Assembly (NCBI RefSeq): GCF_020091585.1
Contig: NZ_CP083582.1
Location: 806,001 to 870,000 of the forward strand
Reading direction: 5' to 3'
DNA length: 64,000 nt
DNA from: Kovacikia minuta CCNUW1
GTDB lineage: Bacteria; Cyanobacteriota; Cyanobacteriia; Leptolyngbyales; Leptolyngbyaceae
The notes below the pieces were generated by a model. It saw only the letters and a program-made list of their open reading frames with translations. It was not told the origin of the DNA and ran no database searches. A program made the translations under genes and the position numbers. Of this stretch, positions 3,817 to 12,027 are shown in pieces; position 1 is the first letter of the stretch; every line of letters begins with the position of its first letter.

Positions 3817-4518
3817 ATGGAAAGTACAGAAGCCCCCATCCGTCTATTAATCGTTGATGATCAGCACTTAATTCGTCAGGGACTCAAGGCAATGTTAGAG
3901 CTAGAGCCTGATTTGCAAATTATCGGAGATGCAGAAAACGGCAAAGTTGCTCTGGAACTGATTGCAACCCTGCAACCAGATGTCGTGTTGATGGATATTC
4001 AGATGCCCGAAATGGACGGATTGACTGCCACCAAATTAATTACTCAAAATTTTCCTGATATTCGAGTTTTAATTTTAAGTACATTTGATGACTATAGTTA
4101 TGTCTCTGGAGCGGTCCAATCGGGAGCAAAGGGCTATTTACTTAAGGATGTGCCTTCCCGGCAGTTAATCAGTGCAATTCGGTTTGTTTATCATGGCTAT
4201 ACCCAGTTTGGACCAGGGTTATTCGATAAACTGCTGGTAACCGCTGCTCCCGTATCCCCAACCAATCAAGCCACTGCTTTTCCCAAATTATCCGAACTCA
4301 CCTCGCGGGAACAGGAGGTTCTGCAACTGGTTGGAATTGGTTGCACCAATCGGGAAATTGCCGAACGTCTCTTCATCACTGAAGGCACCGTCAAGACCTA
4401 TGTCACAAGTATTCTGAGTCGCTTGAATTTGCGTAATCGATCGCAACTTGCTATCTATGCCAACTCTGCGACAACTCCCGGAAATGAACTGGCAGGAGTT
4501 GTCAGGAGGAAAAATTAA
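3817..4518 (+). CDS. NarL/FixJ family response regulator, second copy
   Basis: A 233-residue regulator. The receiver has D60 in VVLMDIQMPEMDG and a YLLKDVP lysine box. The C-terminal LuxR helix-turn-helix contains LTSREQEVLQLVGIGCTNRE and TEGTVKTYVTSILSRLNL. The domain plan and the conserved YTQFGPG linker segment match the regulator at 2478-3161, so the two probably arose by duplication. The 655-base repeat-rich gap suggests its own promoter rather than co-transcription. It could share the upstream HisKA_3 kinase, or be fed by the Cache sensor at the window start. Confidence 0.87.
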   Translation: MESTEAPIRLLIVDDQHLIRQGLKAMLELEPDLQIIGDAENGKVALELIATLQPDVVLMDIQMPEMDGLTATKLITQNFPDIRVLILSTFDDYSYVSGAVQSGAKGYLLKDVPSRQLISAIRFVYHGYTQFGPGLFDKLLVTAAPVSPTNQATAFPKLSELTSREQEVLQLVGIGCTNREIAERLFITEGTVKTYVTSILSRLNLRNRSQLAIYANSATTPGNELAGVVRRKN

Positions 4519-4643
4519 ACATTAGAGCGACCGAGAACTATGAGCCAGAGAATAACCCCCAATCCGTGATAGTCAGATTACCCACGCTGTGAGAAGTTTG
4601 CCAATCTGAGTGAGCAGGAGGCAATAATCCCAGCTTTCATTAA

Positions 4644-4890
4644 CTAACGCAGTGACTTGAATGCCGCCCGAATCTCCTCCGAGAAAATCTGCGGCTGTTC
4701 CCATGCGGCGAAGTGTCCGCCTTGTCCGTAACCTGATGGGCACTGTTCTGAGTAGCTTGCTGTGCCAGGATGCGGGTGGGTAGTGCCAAAAACACCATCG
4801 CCACCAGGAGCGCGACGAGGAGGCGCGACAGGACGAAGGCACTTGCGATGCGAACTTTGGGTTTGTAATGTCTTTTTTTCGTTTGATCAT
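4644..4890 (-). pseudogene. Remnant of an exported alpha/beta hydrolase (both ends, middle missing)
   Basis: The minus strand from the ATG at 4890 begins MIKRKK. After a one-base shift in a seven-A run it reads a convincing signal peptide (VRIASAFVLSRLLVALLVAM... ending ILAQQ). About 40 codons later the frame changes again and reads GQGGHFAAWEQPQIF...RAAFKSLR-stop. That is the characteristic C terminus of epoxide-hydrolase-type alpha/beta hydrolases. The whole catalytic middle (about 300 residues) is absent. The first and last codons are therefore preserved around a large internal deletion, with frameshifts. It lies downstream of an intact relative on the same strand. Confidence 0.6.
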
Positions 4891-5090
4891 GATAGTTTTT
4901 CCCTGCTGGAAATTCTCCCTTTCACGACTCAGGCTCAGCACACAATACTTTTCGTTAAAAGGGCAAAGGGCAAGGGCGAAAGAAGAAGACCTCTGGCTTT
5001 CATCCCTTTCCCCCTTCGCCTTCCCCCTTTCGCCTTTCGCCTTCCCCCTTCCCCTCCCCCTTCCTAAGCCATCCTGAGCGAAACCCACCA

Positions 5091-6140
5091 TTACCCATCC
5101 ACATCAAAGATCGCTTTGGCAAACTCCTGTGGTGCTTCCTGCGGCAGGTTATGCCCAATGCCGCCTTTGATCGTGCGGTGCGAATATTTGCCTGAAAATT
5201 TTTGGGCGTAGGAGCTGGGCTTTGGATGCGGTGCGCCATTGGCATCCCCCTCTAATGTGATGGTGGGTACGGCGATCTCAGGGGCAGCGGCGAGTCGCTT
5301 CTCGTACTCGTCATACTTCGATTCACCTTCGACCAAACCGAGCCGCCAGCGGTAGTTATGGATGACAATCGCGACATGATCCGGGTTGTTGAAGGACGCT
5401 GCACTGCGATCGAACGTCGCGTCATCAAAGTGCCATTTTGGCGAGGCAAGTTGCCAGATCAGCTTGTTGAAATCGTGCCGATTTTTTTCGTAGCCGAGCT
5501 GGCCGCGTTCCGTCGCGAAGTAAAACTGGTACCACCATTGAAGTTCGGACTGCGGCGGTAGCGGCATTTTGTTGGCTTCAGGGCTGCCGATCAGATAGCC
5601 ACTGACGGAAACGAGCGCTTTGCAACGCTCCGGCCAGAGTGCCGCGATGATGTTAGCGGTACGTGCGCCCCAATCATACCCAGCGAGAATGGCTCGCTCG
5701 ATCTTAAGCGCATCCATCAGTGCGATAATATCGACTGCAAGTGCCGACTGCTGACCATTTCGGGGTGTCTCACTGGCAAGAAAGCGCGTCGTACCATAGC
5801 CCCGCAAATAGGGGATGATGACCCGATAGCCCGCCGATGCCAACAACGGAGCGACATCGACATAGCTGTGAATATCGTAGGGCCATCCGTGCAGGAGGAT
5901 GACAGGACGACCATTCGCAGGACCGGCTTCGGCGTACCCGACACTCAAGACACCGGCATCAACCTGCTTCAGGGAGCCGAACGACGGGTTTGTCCCCGTC
6001 TTCGTCCTATCCCAAACGGCTGGTTTTATTTGGCTCGATTGGGCGTTGGCAGAACCGAATCGGTTGAGCTGTGTCATCGCAATGGCGATCGCCGCAGTGC
6101 CCAAAAAGCGGCGACGTTGATGGTTGAGTTTTTCAAACAT
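5091..6140 (-). CDS. Exported alpha/beta hydrolase, epoxide hydrolase / haloalkane dehalogenase type
   Basis: 349 residues. The N terminus has a Tat-like signal (twin-arginine RRRFLG at 9-14, hydrophobic run, ANAQ cleavage area at about 31-34). The hydrolase core has the oxyanion box LLHGWP (82-87) and the nucleophile elbow AGYDWGAR, so the nucleophile is Asp156 rather than Ser, as in epoxide hydrolases and dehalogenases. The catalytic His is about 330 in GGIGHNLP. It probably hydrolyses epoxides or similar small electrophiles outside the cytoplasmic membrane; the substrate is unknown. It belongs to the same-strand stress/detoxification array that runs down from 10861. Confidence 0.82.
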   Translation of the reverse strand: MFEKLNHQRRRFLGTAAIAIAMTQLNRFGSANAQSSQIKPAVWDRTKTGTNPSFGSLKQVDAGVLSVGYAEAGPANGRPVILLHGWPYDIHSYVDVAPLLASAGYRVIIPYLRGYGTTRFLASETPRNGQQSALAVDIIALMDALKIERAILAGYDWGARTANIIAALWPERCKALVSVSGYLIGSPEANKMPLPPQSELQWWYQFYFATERGQLGYEKNRHDFNKLIWQLASPKWHFDDATFDRSAASFNNPDHVAIVIHNYRWRLGLVEGESKYDEYEKRLAAAPEIAVPTITLEGDANGAPHPKPSSYAQKFSGKYSHRTIKGGIGHNLPQEAPQEFAKAIFDVDG

Positions 6141-6143
6141 TTT

Positions 6144-6233
6144 CTAATCCTGTTCACTGATCGTTTGCGCGTAGGTTTTGCCGTAGGGGTAGAAGCGTTC
6201 TTTGCGTCCTTTAGGAATGGGGATTAAGTAATT
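6144..6233 (-). pseudogene. Possible 3'-end fragment of an unidentified gene
   Basis: Just upstream of the hydrolase, the minus strand encodes about 29 residues (NYLIPIPKGRKERFYPYGKT... then a stop) with a protein-like composition. The upstream continuation passes into a repeat-like sequence at 6235-6300 and has no start. I do not recognise the family. It fits the local pattern of gene ends left after deletions, but may be chance. Confidence 0.25.
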
Positions 6234-6332
6234 TGCAATTCTCGTGGGATAGGCATCTTGCCCGTCCGAGCGGGTGACACACCCACCCCACAGGTTATTT
6301 AATTCATGATCCTTAGTGGAGCGATCGAACTG

Positions 6333-6811
6333 TCAAGCCGGGACTGTCCTCCGCGTGAATTCAGCGGCGTGCAGTTTCACGAAGTCGTACACTTTTGTTG
6401 GCGTCTTGCCGGTGAGCTTGAATAGGTGATCTGTCATATCGAGTCCAAATCAGTCAGATCGCCCTGCACAACCTCGGCTCCAAGCTGCCGCAGTGCCTCA
6501 GCCCGTTCATCGTCTCGTCGAACTAAGGCACGCACTTTATTAACCTGGCAATATTTGATCTAGCATGAGCTGTAGGGTGCTGTTAGGCATCGCCGTAACG
6601 CACCGCTAACCCACGCCTCGGTGCGTTACGCTGTCGCTAACAGCACCCTACGCAATCATGGCGCAATTCCAAAATATGTAGGAACAAAAGCTGCCGGGTT
6701 AATATGTCCCTTGTCGAGCAGCAGTGCCGTGAGATTACGTCCGATCGCACCGAGATCGCCAGCGGCTCCAGTCACCAAAATCGGGCTGTCATAGGTGAAT
6801 TTCATCGTCAT
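6333..6811 (-). pseudogene. NmrA-like NAD(P)-binding protein, deleted and MITE-interrupted
   Basis: From the ATG at 6811 (AAGG-type ribosome site upstream) the minus strand reads MTMKFTYDSPILVTGAAGDL, a Rossmann dinucleotide motif. It continues to LLLDKGH, where the 163-bp element at 6540-6702 intervenes. Beyond it the frame resumes as KVRALVRRDDERAEALRQLG and GDLTDLDS. It then jumps directly to MTDHLFKLTGKTPTKVYDFV...HAAEFT and a stop, the usual NmrA/azoreductase-like C terminus. Roughly 180 residues are missing at that junction. Two independent lesions therefore hit this gene: an internal deletion and a transposon insertion. It is non-functional. Confidence 0.75.
6540..6702. mobile_element. 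163-bp MITE with TA target duplication
   Basis: The element starts TTAACCTGGCA and ends TGCCGGGTTAA, inverted ends of about 11 bases with one mismatch. It is flanked by TA at 6538-6539 and 6703-6704. Removing the element and one TA joins the NmrA reading frame exactly (GGA CAT AAA GTG CGT), which proves insertion. Inside is a nested hairpin: arms GTAGGGTGCTGTTAG / CTAACAGCACCCTAC and GTAACGCACCG / CGGTGCGTTAC. There is no coding capacity. TA duplication suggests mobilisation by an IS630/Tc1-mariner-type transposase (inference). Confidence 0.85.
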
Positions 6812-6927
6812 ATTGTTTACCTTTTGCAGCAGGTTTCATTTGCATCAACCACACCCCACACCCCACACCCCACACCCCAGTTCAAAGACTGTGGCTCACT
6901 CACTCGAAAATTGCTGCAATTGCGGGA

Positions 6928-7959
6928 TCAGCCGAACGTGAATGCAAATACCTCCACCCCAGCATCCAGAAACTCAATCTCGAACTGTCGATCGCCGATA
7001 GGCTGCGGCTGCCGCACCAGTTGGTACAACCGTTGTTCAGTAACCGCGCCTTCGCCTTGCTCATCAACGTCAAATCCGTGAGCGGCAACTGGTGGCTGTC
7101 CATCTACAAGCACGCGAAACTGTACAGACGTTCTTAGCCTGGCTGGACCCATGACAAGATGTAGATCACGGGCGTGGAAGCGATATGCAATCCGTCCCCC
7201 AGATTGATTCAGGGCAATGGCTTGTCTGCCGATCGTCCAATCGCCCGCAAGCGCCCACTGATTCCGTTGCAGTTGCGCCGGGATGGTATATGAACGAGGC
7301 GTGTTTATCACTGCGCCACCGGGAGATGCAAAATGCTCCGTTCTGTCGTAACCGAGGTAGTTTTCCGGCGATTTGAGGCTGTTCCAATCGGCGGCAACTT
7401 CAAAACCGCGAGCGTCGATTTCGACTATTTCCTGGCTGACACGACTCGTTCCAGACTCAGACAGGAGCTGTTGAATCACCCGTTCGGATTGCTCGTACTC
7501 GCCCTCACCGAAGTGGTGATGACGAATGCGTCCTTGCCTGTCGATGAAATAAAGGGCTGGCCAGTAATGGTTCTCGAAGGCACGCCACATGGCATAGTTA
7601 TTATCTACCGCGATCGGGTAGTTCATGTTCATATCCGTTAAGGCTCGACGGACATTCTCGATCGTGTGCTCAAACTCGAACTCAGGTGTGTGTACACCGA
7701 TCACCACTAAGCCCTGGTCTTTATACTTCTCAGCCCAGGCGCGAACATACGGGAGTTGGCGCAGCCAATTGATGCAAGTATACGTCCAGAAGTTGATCAG
7801 CACGACTTTGCCGCTTAGTTCGTCCACTGTCAATGGCTGGGAATTGAGCCACGGGGTCGCGCCGATAAGAGGGGGCAGTTCGCCTTCAATTGGTAATTCA
7901 ATCGGTTGAACCGTCGTTGTTGAGAACTCGCGACGCTTAGAATGAATTTCTTCGGACAT
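6928..7959 (-). CDS. Thioredoxin-like protein, DipZ/TlpA-like, with one active-site Cys missing
   Basis: 343 residues without a signal peptide. Residues about 25-180 form a redoxin domain (VVLINFWTYTC at 52-62, later LVVIGVHTPEFEFEHTIENV and WPALYFIDRQGRIRHHHFGE). Residues 190-343 resemble the C-terminal beta-sandwich found after redoxin in DipZ proteins. The active site reads TCINWLR (C62, W65), whereas relatives have CxxC. The resolving Cys is thus replaced by Trp, so normal disulfide exchange is doubtful; a mixed-disulfide or peroxidase-like role is possible. It is preceded on the same strand by the nitrilase remnant. Confidence 0.8.
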   Translation of the reverse strand: MSEEIHSKRREFSTTTVQPIELPIEGELPPLIGATPWLNSQPLTVDELSGKVVLINFWTYTCINWLRQLPYVRAWAEKYKDQGLVVIGVHTPEFEFEHTIENVRRALTDMNMNYPIAVDNNYAMWRAFENHYWPALYFIDRQGRIRHHHFGEGEYEQSERVIQQLLSESGTSRVSQEIVEIDARGFEVAADWNSLKSPENYLGYDRTEHFASPGGAVINTPRSYTIPAQLQRNQWALAGDWTIGRQAIALNQSGGRIAYRFHARDLHLVMGPARLRTSVQFRVLVDGQPPVAAHGFDVDEQGEGAVTEQRLYQLVRQPQPIGDRQFEIEFLDAGVEVFAFTFG

Positions 7960-8002
7960 GGGCTGACCTCCTTGTCGTTCCGTTCGGATGGATAGGGTGG
8001 GA

Positions 8003-8281
8003 TTAGACGACTTTGATAGTCCTCTCCTCGACGATCGCGTGCGAGCCAGTAACCGACTCTTCCATCAACCGGAGCTGCTCCTTTGCCAATCCAAATGGAG
8101 CTAGCACGCAGGAAAAGTAAGGGTAATAGGGAATGATGGTTTCTAGGAAAGTGGCGAACTGAACACCTGGTTTGCCCAGCTCACGAATCTTCTTCACAAT
8201 CTTCTCGTCGGTTCCTTGTCGGCTGTACAGCACCGGGCTGATCTGCACGGCGGCAGCTTTAATGATTGATTTTTTAAACAT
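8003..8281 (-). pseudogene. Aliphatic nitrilase, N-terminal fragment
   Basis: The 92-residue frame opens with KAAAVQISPVLYSRQGT...VQFATFLETIIPYYPYF...LRLMEESVT, the N-terminal quarter of the roughly 330-residue nitrilase family. It includes the catalytic Glu position (FATFxET). After SVT it ends within about 14 unrelated residues. The lysine and cysteine of the Glu-Lys-Cys triad and the rest of the enzyme are missing, so it cannot be active. The start codon and ribosome site are preserved. It is another member of the minus-strand array that has lost most of its body. Confidence 0.7.
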
Positions 8282-8306
8282 CCATCGTGCTCCAATTGAA
8301 TTTAAC

Positions 8307-8915
8307 TCAACTGGCTTTTATTGAGTTTGCTAATTGGTTTAAATGTGAGTATTGATGTTGATCTGGTTTGGAGGAAGCAGTAGCATTTTGATGCTGTTTG
8401 ATTCTCAACACATAGCCAACACTACGCACTGTATGGATGAATTGTTTTGCACCGTGCGCTTCTAGCTTGATTCGCAAGTAGCGAATATAAACTTCAACCA
8501 CATTAGAACTGACCAAACTTTCGTAACCCCAAACACCATCTAAAATTTGATCACGGGTTAATACTTGATTTGGATGGCGCATTAGATATTCCAACAAATC
8601 AAACTCTTTCGCGGTTAGTTCAATTTCTCGATGGCAGTAGAAAACCTGATGTGCTTTGCGATCGAGAATAAGTTGCTCAAACTGTAGAATATGAGTTAAT
8701 TTTTCTCCCTGCCCCAAGTGTACTCGAACTCTAGCGATGAGTTTTTCTATCACATCTTCCACTGAGCTAATTTGATATCCTTCATAGCTCAGTTCCTGTA
8801 CAATTAGCTGAGCCAATTGACGATCGTTTTCGACCAGTGGAATGTGTGATGTTGATTGTACCGCCGTTTTATGAACACGATCGTTCGTGTTGATTTGAGG
8901 AATCGTTTGTAGCAT
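8307..8915 (-). CDS. OmpR/PhoB-family regulator with a gutted receiver domain
   Basis: 202 residues. The C-terminal winged helix is complete (about 80-175: REIELTAKEFDLLEYLM, LTRDQILDGVWGYE, SNVVEVYIRYLRIKLE, IHTVRSVGYVLR). The receiver starts normally (PLVENDRQLAQLIVQELSYE at about 27-46) but then passes within a few residues to EKLIARVRVHL, which is the alpha-5 end of a receiver. About 70 residues carrying the phospho-acceptor Asp and conserved Lys are gone, without loss of frame. The protein could still bind DNA but not be phosphorylated in the usual way. It could be a decay product or a constitutive regulator of the surrounding array. Confidence 0.75.
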   Translation of the reverse strand: MLQTIPQINTNDRVHKTAVQSTSHIPLVENDRQLAQLIVQELSYEGYQISSVEDVIEKLIARVRVHLGQGEKLTHILQFEQLILDRKAHQVFYCHREIELTAKEFDLLEYLMRHPNQVLTRDQILDGVWGYESLVSSNVVEVYIRYLRIKLEAHGAKQFIHTVRSVGYVLRIKQHQNATASSKPDQHQYSHLNQLANSIKAS

Positions 8916-8947
8916 CTTGAAACCCCGCCTGGATTGCGTTTATAGAC

Positions 8948-9166
8948 TTATGCACTGCGGAGAGCCACTCCGAGTGAAGAACCTGTCACATCGGCACGAT
9001 AGGCAACAGCTTTTGGACCCAGTTCTTCGATAGCAACATCGAGCGTCTGCTGATCTCGACCTGTGATTGCCACCTCAGCCCCTTTGTGAATGAAGAGCCG
9101 AGCGGTAGTAAAGCCAATACCGCTGTTTCCCCCAGTAATCAGTGCCTTCTTCCCTTCCAGTCTCAT
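8948..9166 (-). pseudogene. Short-chain dehydrogenase, N-terminal fragment
   Basis: 72 residues starting MRLEGKKALITGGNSGIGF, the classical SDR nucleotide-binding motif TGxxxGIG. It continues through AEVAITGRDQQTLD and YRADVTG and then ends in a short tail. Normal SDRs are about 245 residues; the catalytic Ser-Tyr-Lys region is missing. It sits 52 bases after the full-length SDR on the same strand. It retains a good start and ribosome site, so a short peptide may be made, but an enzyme is not possible. Confidence 0.7.
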
Positions 9167-9218
9167 AACAATCTCCTTTGGGAAGTGAATGTGTGCATGT
9201 TGCAGGTCAGGTAACGGT

Positions 9219-10076
9219 CTAGGCTGCTATGCGATCGTCATGGTCGGTACTTGCGGATACTGGCAGCCAGTCCTCGATTTCCTGTGCCACTTTTGCGGCG
9301 TTGTTCTGATACATTGCGACGGCATCCTTGCCGACGGGTAAATGCAACGGTGGATGTTCTGCATTGGCGACTTGAAGAATGACCTGAGCCAGCTTTTTCG
9401 GATCACCGGGTTGGTTCCCGTGTAGCGCATCCGCTCCGTTCCGCATCCGACCTACTGTTGTCTGGTAATCGTCGATGATGGTTTTAGTGGCAACATAGGA
9501 TTCAGTGCTGAGGAAGTCGGTTGTAAACAGACCGGGAGCGACTGCCGTAACGTGAATACCGAGCGGTGCCAGTTCGACCGCTAGCCCCTGGGAAAGACCT
9601 TCGACGGCAAATTTCGTAGACCCATACAATCCCCAGCCCGGAACCACATCGTAACCAAATAAAGACGAGATATTGATGATTCGCCCAGACCTTTGCTGGC
9701 GCAAGTACGGCAACACCGCACGAGTCACGTTGAGTAAGCCAAACACGTTGGTATCATACTGTTTGCGAACCTCGGCATCCGTGGCTTCTTCGATCGCCGT
9801 TACCATACCAAACCCGGCATTATTGAGTAAGACATCAATCCGACCAAAATCGGCAATGCCCTGCTTGACCGCCGCTTGTACCTGGTCTTCCTGAGTGACA
9901 TCCATCTGCACCACATACAAATCCGGGGGATTGTTTAGGGTAGCGGTGAGGTGTTCGGGCTGACGACGAACTGTTGCAATGACTCGATCGCCTGCTGCCA
10001 GGGCTGCTTTGGTAACTTCCAACCCGAAGCCTCTAGAAGCTCCGGTGATGAACCATACTTTCTGTGTTTTCATCAT
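9219..10076 (-). CDS. Short-chain dehydrogenase/reductase (classical SDR)
   Basis: About 285 residues from the ATGATG at 10071-10076, chosen because a GAGGA ribosome site lies immediately upstream; an earlier in-frame start at 10103 lacks one. It has TGASRGFG (cofactor), NNAG, the ISS serine and the YGSTK catalytic Tyr-Lys. It therefore looks like an intact NAD(P)-dependent oxidoreductase of the group often annotated as oxidoreductase/retinol dehydrogenase-like. The substrate is unknown. It is second in the minus-strand array, 78 bases after the VOC gene. Confidence 0.87.
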   Translation of the reverse strand: MMKTQKVWFITGASRGFGLEVTKAALAAGDRVIATVRRQPEHLTATLNNPPDLYVVQMDVTQEDQVQAAVKQGIADFGRIDVLLNNAGFGMVTAIEEATDAEVRKQYDTNVFGLLNVTRAVLPYLRQQRSGRIINISSLFGYDVVPGWGLYGSTKFAVEGLSQGLAVELAPLGIHVTAVAPGLFTTDFLSTESYVATKTIIDDYQTTVGRMRNGADALHGNQPGDPKKLAQVILQVANAEHPPLHLPVGKDAVAMYQNNAAKVAQEIEDWLPVSASTDHDDRIAA

Positions 10077-10180
10077 GTGTCCTCGTTTTACAACGGTTGT
10101 CAAATGGAGCAGCTACAACCCTATGGATTGGGGTGTGGGGTGTGGGGTGTGGATAACGCAAGTGAAAATAGCTGGGGGTG

Positions 10181-10861
10181 TTATCTGGAAAGAACGGGAG
10201 AAAGTTCTTCCATGTAACGATCGGCGGCAGCGGCTGCCTCCTCTGGACTGCTGCCGTTCTGACGGGCGCTTAGATAGGGCGCGTACCAGTCCCACCAGTC
10301 GTGCTCACCGTGAGTTTTCTCGTAGTGGTCGTGGTGTTCTGCCGTCTCACGCAGCAAGGTTGCCAGGGTTGCAACGTCTGTTTGGGGAAAGTCCCACAGG
10401 CGACCAGGAAGGCGTGTTGTGATTTCCTGGAGTAGCCAGAGGTTGCCGTCCGGATCTTCAAACGAGGCAAAGGAGAAGTAGGAATGACCTTGCGGATCGC
10501 GTCCGGGGAGGCGCGGGGTTTCTACAGCGTTATTAAAAGGACCACCCGCGTAGTGGAAGATCTCACTCACATTGACACCGCGATCGAGTAAGTCTTTGCG
10601 GGCAGTATCGAGGTTTTCCACGACGAGAACTAAGCTGTGTGCCGAACCTCCATTGTCGGGAGTGACGCCCTTGCCGAAGATAATTGAGGCGTCCGAGTTG
10701 GGCGGCGTCATCTGTACACCACGGAAGCTGCCCTCTACCACGTCGATGTCAAACCGCCAGCCAAGATTTTTGTAGAATGCCTTCGCCCGATCGACATCGG
10801 AAACGTTGAACACTACAATTTCGAGTTTCATGGTTGGATTGTTTACGGAATTGCTACTCAT
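10181..10861 (-). CDS. VOC (glyoxalase/bleomycin-resistance fold) protein
   Basis: 226 residues. A vicinal-oxygen-chelate domain (about 10-150) has the paired motifs MKLEIVVFNVSDVDRAKAFY and FASFEDPDGNLWLLQEIT. A charged helical tail (150-226; AEHHDHYEKTHGEHDWWDWY) is found in a subgroup of these proteins. The family includes glyoxalases, dioxygenases and resistance proteins; no specific reaction can be assigned. The start at 10861 is supported by AAGGAG ahead of the ATG. It is the first gene of the array, and its upstream region carries a palindrome and flanks shared with the emrA upstream region. Confidence 0.82.
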   Translation of the reverse strand: MSSNSVNNPTMKLEIVVFNVSDVDRAKAFYKNLGWRFDIDVVEGSFRGVQMTPPNSDASIIFGKGVTPDNGGSAHSLVLVVENLDTARKDLLDRGVNVSEIFHYAGGPFNNAVETPRLPGRDPQGHSYFSFASFEDPDGNLWLLQEITTRLPGRLWDFPQTDVATLATLLRETAEHHDHYEKTHGEHDWWDWYAPYLSARQNGSSPEEAAAAADRYMEELSPVLSR

Positions 10862-10910
10862 CTTGTTCTCCTTAAGATTGATAGATTTGCTATTCAGTTT
10901 GATTTCCTTT

Positions 10911-10976
10911 CATTCTTCTGAGATCGCCCCCCACAGACCACTCAAGTTCTTTGAGTTAAAATGCGACTTAATCATT
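10911..10976 (-). promoter_or_regulatory. Conserved upstream region with perfect palindrome, VOC array
   Basis: 66 bases align without gaps to 18354-18419 upstream of emrA. They share CATTCTTCTG, then GATCGCCC, a palindrome, and ACTTAATCATT at identical spacing. The palindrome is ACTCAA-GTTCT-TTGAGT (10940-10956), about 80 bases before the VOC start codon. It is probably a common operator and promoter for a dimeric regulator not encoded nearby. Confidence 0.6.
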
Positions 10977-11188
10977 TGATTGGCAGAAAGCAGAAAGAAT
11001 TAAGCCAGAAATTGTTAGACCCACACATGCTTCAAGTCACGATCGCATCATTCACCGAATCAATCGGCAAACTGATCTTGGGCTGCTCCTGCTGCTTCTG
11101 CTGCACATTGAGCCTGGGGATGAATTTGACGTTGGGAAAAATGCTGAAAGATAAAACATAAATCATCCCCTCCTGAGGAAACAGGAAG

Positions 11189-11350
11189 CTACCACTGAAT
11201 CGCTTTAATCAACTGATAAACGTCCGCGCTGTGAGAGCGTTGATAGTCTCCATACATTACGAGTATTACGGCAGCATCTAACTGACCTTCCGTGTGATCC
11301 TGGGTTGCAGGTGGAACGGATACTGGACTGCGGACATAATCATGATTCAT
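11189..11350 (-). pseudogene. DsbA/thioredoxin-fold protein, N-terminal fragment
   Basis: From the ATG at 11350 the minus strand reads about 53 residues, including DHTEGQLDAAVILVMYGDYQ and SADVYQLIKAIQ. This is the start of DsbA-family proteins (GxxDAxVTLVxYGDYxCPxS). The active-site CPxS appears as RSHS, so the Cys is lost, and the protein stops after one helix instead of about 170 residues. It is on the same strand as the array and another truncated redox gene. The identification rests on this short motif. Confidence 0.5.
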
Positions 11351-11383
11351 GAATCCCTCCAAGAGTACGCATTCTACTCGCAA

Positions 11384-12027
11384 CCAAGCGTCTACAACCC
11401 TCTTTTCCTCACCCCTATCCAGTAAACTGAGAGCCTGTAACTCGGTTGATTGGCGACCCTTATGAGGGTGAGTTCACTATAACCAATTGGGTTTGGTTTG
11501 TCGCCTACCTAGAGTTTGCAATTTTGCACCTTAGCAGGAGTGATTCATCCGTCACTCTCAGGAGGGAAGCCGATGTCAACTCAGGTTGTACTTTGAGATC
11601 CAACTTAAGTAGGGTTGTACTCACAAAAATTGCATCAGGCAGTTATTTCAGCTTGCGCACTGAGCACAACTGTTGCATCTTGAAAAACGGTTTGGGCGAC
11701 TTTTGACAATCTTGACTTCGATCCAATGTATGACTGAACTCTTTACACTCGCAATACCTGTAGCATGACTTTCCTACCCATTGCCATTAGTGCCGTTCAA
11801 CTTAAAGTTGGAGTCTGGCTCAATCCTTAGTTGGATAGGGGAATCATACTCTCTGGGGTACGAAGTAGTAACTCTCGTTGGAGGGGCATAAACTACTTGC
11901 CAGAATTGTCAACTAGCGACAATTACTCCATCAGTCAACGGTGCAACGTCATTTGTGCAAGTTGGAGCAATTACCATCGAGAATAGCTGTAACCTGATCT
12001 GGTCGCTTTAGGAGCGAGAACAGCAAC
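11384..12027. other. Intergenic region upstream of the haemagglutinin gene
   Basis: About 640 bases, with no frame resembling a known protein. The longest plus frame (11446-11706) has an unusual residue mix and no ribosome site. AGGAG at about 12010-12014 is the probable ribosome site for the gene at 12028. No repeat family or RNA was recognised. Confidence 0.4.

Follow-up and report, generated by a model that had tools for sequence, protein, structure and literature searches.

Genes that keep both ends across internal deletions in a mosaic array of Kovacikia minuta CCNUW1

The window, that is, the whole stretch of 64,000 nucleotides analysed here, spans positions 806,001-870,000 of a 7.3-Mb contig in the 8.56-Mb genome of Kovacikia minuta CCNUW1, which was assembled in three contigs with 100% completeness and 4.11% contamination. 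On its minus strand, from about 11,383 down to 4,641, lies an array in which gene remnants stand beside live genes. Compared to full-length cyanobacterial copies, five genes of the array, encoding an epoxide hydrolase (EHN2), an NmrA-family protein, a nitrilase (Nit), an OmpR-type regulator and the SDR protein SDR1, have each lost one block and retain both ends. Full-length homologues exist and all five window copies are without a coding block, as is typical of internal-deletion pseudogenes. We consider this a true and somewhat unusual pattern, the most likely cause of which is ordinary.

Each remnant was aligned to full-length homologues and the best single split was chosen by a script, in 46 comparisons in all. 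In the EHN2 remnant (about 4641-4934, minus strand, as for all genes below), a 5' part (about 4725-4934) is fused, in another reading frame, to a 3' part (about 4641-4724), with 1,102-1,128 nt lost against 12 homologues, among which the split position varies. The NmrA remnant (6336-6811, junction about 6437/6438) has lost 622 nt in 12 of 12 comparisons, likewise out of frame. The original prediction, made from the letters of the window, that the ends of these two genes are joined across large deletions is thereby borne out. In the nitrilase remnant (8003-8281, junction about 8048) the deletion, in frame, measures 720 nt in six of eight comparisons and 722 and 725 nt in the other two; in SDR1 (8948-9166, junction about 8983) it measures 555 nt, in frame, against one homologue and 559 nt against a second (n = 2). 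The OmpR-type regulator (8307-8915, junction about 8752) lacks 213, 210 or 214 nt of its receiver, depending on which of three homologues is used, in agreement with the predicted in-frame loss of about 70 residues, and its DNA-binding domain is whole. In translation, the nitrilase, SDR1 and OmpR frames are open from the start through the native stop. The nitrilase, SDR and DsbA genes had been described as N-terminal parts with short tails; for the nitrilase and SDR1 this is correct, and the tails are their own C-termini, joined in frame. The DsbA-family remnant (about 11069-11383) does not fit that description, since it has an early stop codon at 11189-11191 and has lost its 3' end; no native 3' end was recognisable in its alignment, and it is therefore not an end-keeping case.

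Additional features of the array had escaped earlier notice: a mobile repeat inside the NmrA remnant, the foreign start of the nitrilase remnant and a loss in the leader of the thioredoxin-like gene (Trx). The 5' end of the nitrilase remnant corresponds to the sequence just upstream of EHN1 and to the first EHN1 codons (about 8260-8281), followed by the nitrilase from codon 3 to about codon 74 and its native C-terminus. A separate deletion thus took nearly all of EHN1 and fused its start to nitrilase codon 3. In Trx (6928-7959, with the domains Redoxin and Thioredoxin_10) the N-terminal leader is shortened by 60 nt in seven of nine comparisons, and by 59 and 61 nt in the others, at a junction near 7899 with the frame retained. 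The six junctions used below are thus those at about 4724, 6437, 7899, 8048, 8752 and 8983.

Whether the retention of both ends is out of the ordinary was assessed in two ways. In a placement model, the five deletion sizes were placed uniformly on a composite array of gene lengths and gaps in which SDR2, Trx and the alpha/beta hydrolase gene (ABH) were protected. The model expects 1.4 end-keeping deletions; the probability of all five is 5.1e-4 (7e-4 with the DNA-binding half of OmpR protected) and that of at least four is 0.014-0.017. In a missing-end test, which compares the end at the nucleotide level with shuffles and was not applied to DsbA, all five window cases were recovered at z 12 or more. 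In relatives, one of 24 remnants is clearly two-ended (the nitrilase of locus L165, z 29), and two more are marginal (NIPSNAP of L052, z 5.0; EHN2 of L053, z 4.7 and 5.8). Both ends are therefore kept in 5/7 window remnants vs 1/24 in relatives (Fisher P 6.9e-4, or 5.6e-3 counting the two marginal cases), and P is 1.5e-3 if the EHN1 start is counted as an eighth window remnant. The earlier suspicion that random decay would rarely preserve start and stop so regularly is in line with both results, each of them post hoc, with the relatives' remnants selected by hand; as the locus was picked for its striking look, the P values are optimistic.

The relatives' set comprises 26 loci besides the window, including a second array of the K. 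minuta genome itself (L043); L054, L161 and L164 lie outside the set. The 24 remnants are EHN1 and ABH of L180, EHN2 of L185, NIPSNAP of L186, SDR2 of L043, GMC and NIPSNAP of L021, OmpR of L023, EHN2 of L024, SDR1 and EHN1 of L044, Nit of L046, ABH of L048, GMC of L049, NIPSNAP of L052, VOC2, EHN2 and ABH2 of L053, EHN1 and Nit of L159, AhpC and ABH of L162, NmrA of L163 and Nit of L165; the rows for L162 ABH and L163 NmrA, with their end tests, were taken from separate comparisons. Left out were leader fusions (EHN2 of L044, L049, L180 and L186; EHN1 of L047 and L185), genes at or near contig ends (L044 SDR2, L046 VOC, L160 Nit, L024 EHN1), frame-broken or short members of the VOC family (VOC and VOC2 of L043, VOC2 of L186), VOC rows ending at residues 146-174, and L051 VOC2, the frame of which runs on for 227 residues. 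The shortened ABH2-MsrA gene of L024 is a further end-keeping case outside the 24, and its inclusion would weaken the contrast.

The genes between the remnants remain constrained. ABH (5091-6140), SDR2 (9219-10103) and the VOC protein gene (10181-10861) are full length, as had been proposed, and of the genes first taken as intact the thioredoxin-like gene alone departs from this by its leader loss; for VOC and SDR2 the window's own copies served as full-length references, and relatives match them end to end. Pairwise ratios of nonsynonymous to synonymous substitution rates (dN/dS) against homologues are 0.13 for VOC, 0.13 for SDR2, 0.15 for Trx and 0.11 for ABH, and 0.15-0.20 between homologues. 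For the remnants, the value against homologues and that between homologues are 0.093 and 0.061 for Nit, 0.227 and 0.143 for SDR1 (one homologue pair), 0.116 and 0.086 for the NmrA 5' end and 0.057 and 0.069 for the EHN2 3' end, from short stretches of 26-71 codons with low power; they are 0.285 and 0.221 for the NmrA 3' part, 0.351 and 0.302 for the OmpR 5' part and, with three homologues, 0.220 and 0.199 for the OmpR DNA-binding domain. A further NmrA row (NmrA_N2, 0.352 and 0.079) was left out, its coordinates being suspected to be out of frame. As the remnant ratios are only slightly raised, most of the divergence seems to predate the losses, and the readable starts and stops may be due in part to the youth of these losses.

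Between ABH and the NmrA remnant, only the last 22 codons of an AhpC-like gene are left (6144-6212), and the stretch that relatives carry between the NmrA stop and these codons is gone. The mobile repeat in NmrA (6540-6702, no strand assigned) is a 163-bp palindrome with terminal inverted repeats and TA on both sides (6538-6539 and 6703-6704). At least 20 identical full-length copies are present in the genome, including the one in NmrA, and this identity points to a recent burst. By hand count, the repeat is found in at least about 40 other genomic places at 93% identity or more. Across the family, one copy of 90% occurs in genome G054, and shorter or more distant matches occur in eight other genomes, with 33 in G008. 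A search of Rfam gave no match in 4000-12000 at gathering thresholds.

Related arrays are found on contigs of Nostoc, Mojavia, Phormidium, Gloeocapsa and Nodosilinea, and on plasmid pNsp_a of Nostoc sp. ATCC 53789, which is typed as conjugative. A Trx match at E <= 1e-100 is present in 15 of 388 genomes of the class, this genome included. In genome G002 (L021) the order is VOC, OmpR, EHN1, nitrilase, Trx, NmrA, ABH2, VOC2, AhpC-like, ABH and EHN2, all as open frames, with the Pfam domains of nitrilase, EHN2, NmrA and OmpR matched nearly end to end; the same locus also holds pieces of GMC oxidoreductase and NIPSNAP genes. Near-complete arrays with DsbA and SDR2 upstream occur in G054 (L155 and L156) and G046 (L157 and L158), and in G051 (L159) a full SDR1 stands beside SDR2, at the place of the SDR1 remnant of the window. 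Gene content differs from copy to copy, and remnants recur in the relatives. On pNsp_a, the nitrilase remnant at L165:8110-8798, where no gene is annotated, retains about 54 nt of the 5' end and roughly the last third of the gene; its deletion is an independent end-keeping event that differs from that of the window.

The second array of the same genome (L043, G000:C1:2925001-2945000) follows a large kinase-like gene and a response regulator. It holds DsbA, NIPSNAP and an open SDR1, together with a VOC whose frame is broken, the 3' remnant of an SDR2 and two repeat-family copies. Its open SDR1 is 88% identical in DNA to the SDR1 remnant over 237 nt, and a nitrilase relative elsewhere in the genome is matched over residues 3-297 of 328 at 57%; some of the lost functions may therefore be redundant. 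No intact EHN2 was found elsewhere in the genome, and the best NmrA match there is 29%. Further genes of this genome may be broken, by real decay or through sequencing error: a thioredoxin-like gene at G000:C2:1173959-1174391 is split between frames, and in a survey of SDR genes several of 51 matches are split or truncated in profile coverage. The SDR profile does not extend beyond the first part of the protein, so that an SDR1-like deletion would appear as a one-ended match.

Several EHN genes of relatives, initially taken for remnants with only a 5' part, were rejected as such: each is a complete open frame in which a borrowed leader precedes a different body. That body is DUF6130 (PF19625; the Pfam run covered L044, L047, L049 and L160), which carries an EHN1/ABH-type leader at L047:8197-8781 and in L185 (about 12770-12100), and an EHN2-type leader at L044:6679-7302, L049:4251-4874 and L160:6283-6879 and in L180 (about 8262-8900) and L186 (about 6270-6960). 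The DUF6130 bodies of L047 and L044 are 87% identical in DNA, starting from about the end of the borrowed leader. N-terminal leaders are thus exchanged between unrelated proteins of the array. This is the more interesting by-product of the analysis, and such leaders provide natural material for work on the origin of new combinations of N-terminal leader and body.

The reading frame of the deletions differs along the array. Intergenic gaps in the stretch SDR2-SDR1-OmpR-Nit-Trx are 52, 32, 25 and 43 nt, and here all three internal deletions, as well as the joint between EHN1 and Nit, can be read through without interruption as far as the native stop; beyond this stretch, NmrA and EHN2 are both out of frame. 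The chance of an open frame is 0.037 for three of three and 0.012 for four of four. This pattern fits a filter by coupled translation, though it is no proof of one. It is conceivable, if doubtful, that genes in tightly packed arrays die preferentially by in-frame loss of the middle or by in-frame joining of a start to the next body, since the live genes downstream depend on continued translation. ABH2 and MsrA form one long open frame in G054, G046 and L185, and L024:3235-3906 combines the ABH2 start with the whole MsrA domain, the ABH2 body missing in frame, in what looks like a related in-frame event. Were such a frame rule true, the array might be a natural record of it, and the new leader-body combinations (EHN1-Nit, ABH2-MsrA and those of DUF6130) could stem from the same process, a view that we hold only tentatively. 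It would then predict which deletions survive inside operons, and provide a sequence signature for genes that die beside genes that matter.

Several observations weigh against selection on neighbouring genes as the source of the pattern. Three in-frame cases among all five internal deletions are unremarkable (P 0.21), and the retention of both ends in NmrA and EHN2 would be plain luck. When the L165 alignment is inspected by eye, its nitrilase deletion is out of frame, immediately before an annotated Trx; this speaks against any strict frame rule. In L046 and L159, nitrilase remnants that have no native start precede a full-length Trx. A promoter scan gave 6 sites vs 5.8 in shuffles, and the operon structure is deduced from spacing only. 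In the parts of the literature that were available, nothing was found to support a frame rule in operon pseudogenes, and no paper on this gene set was found.

On balance, we think it probable that the remnants reflect ordinary, recent inactivation in a mosaic and partly plasmid-borne accessory array, filtered by selection on neighbouring genes. The array would be an accessory cluster that is acquired, exchanged and lost among many cyanobacteria and is in part plasmid-borne; in this lineage, separate single deletions and one insertion of the mobile repeat would recently have inactivated several of its members. The deletions may have arisen from ordinary slippage or end joining without Ku, and selection may have removed those losses that reached a live neighbour or cut translation short before a closely spaced live gene. 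The survivors would then be genes without middles, in frame at the spacing of 25-52 nt from SDR2 to Trx and out of frame elsewhere, as in NmrA and EHN2.

As the original prediction had proposed, a process prone to deletion could instead excise gene interiors, or short direct repeats could guide the losses; such a process might be local or genome-wide, and might act, for example, at HIP1 palindromes. The junctions lend no support to such repeats: split ambiguity is 0-4 bases in 41 of 46 comparisons, the five wider ones being single homologues, and no repeat clearly longer than chance was found at both deletion ends in these comparisons. No PF02735 match (Ku) was found in the genome, with B. subtilis matching among 14 control genomes. 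HIP1 (GCGATCGC) occurs 40 times in the window vs 0.91 expected, and one paper connects it with site-specific recombination and, at low efficiency, with illegitimate recombination (PMC4390886). Relative to random positions, the mean distance from breakpoints to exact HIP1 sites is smaller (P 0.014), with two sites within 30 bases (P 0.045); when one mismatch is allowed, 30 bases or fewer separate 4 of 12 breakpoints from a site (P 0.035; EHN2 3, NmrA 11, Nit 26 and OmpR 30 bases), but the mean distance is ordinary (P 0.42), and the breakpoints of SDR1 and Trx are all more than 30 bases away from any site. As these four P values, uncorrected for multiplicity and from only six junctions, disagree, we do not claim HIP1 as the cause. 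A special deletion mechanism for the array appears unlikely, and plain slippage or end joining without Ku would be the default.

The short forms might also be working proteins: an OmpR without most of its receiver, a leaderless Trx and perhaps the Nit and SDR1 peptides. The whole OmpR DNA-binding domain is constrained as in its homologues, three full-length OmpR relatives already have Gly in the alignment at the place where, by the structure of receivers, the phosphate-accepting Asp would usually be expected, and the mature part of Trx is constrained. Nit and SDR1, however, are without most of their catalytic domains, and the junctions of Nit, OmpR and SDR1 are not shared: among the matches listed for 42 family genomes (query 7960-11400, best 7 candidates per genome, with NmrA, EHN2 and the Trx leader outside the search) no match outside this genome spans them, so that the short forms of these three genes do not emerge as conserved proteins, and we regard this alternative as rather unlikely. 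The same matches contain no donor with any of these three junctions, which makes it quite improbable that recombination between arrays brought in, from several donors, genes that had been shortened beforehand; the strongly mosaic nature of the array and the independently shortened nitrilase on the plasmid would suit such an import, although the plasmid deletion is a different one. An assembly or sequencing fault seems very improbable. Other genes in the genome are split between frames, and contamination is 4.11%, but the assembly is otherwise complete and in three contigs, six blocks of 60-1,128 nt are missing from some 4.5 kb, those of the tight stretch in frame, there is little overlap at the junctions to collapse, and losses of 555, 720 and 213 nt that still allow reading as far as the native stop are unlike the faults to be expected. 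Ordinary inactivation filtered by live neighbours is thus the explanation we favour, and for annotation the array carries a warning, as short open frames with a native start and stop can be hollowed-out genes.

Among known systems, the remnants resemble the pseudogenes formed by internal deletion in bacterial gene loss, with single deletions, little or no repeat at the ends and remnants beside live genes; they differ in that most keep both ends, three are open to the native stop, and all lie in one array. HIP1-associated deletion in cyanobacteria, reportedly described by Gupta in 1993, is similar insofar as HIP1 or HIP1-like sites are close to some of the breakpoints, and different in that the tests disagree and involve only six junctions. 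The repeat in NmrA has the structure of non-autonomous miniature inverted-repeat transposable elements (MITEs) with a TA target, being a 163-bp palindrome with TA flanks and many near-identical copies; we take the TA target to tie such MITEs to IS630/Tc1-mariner.

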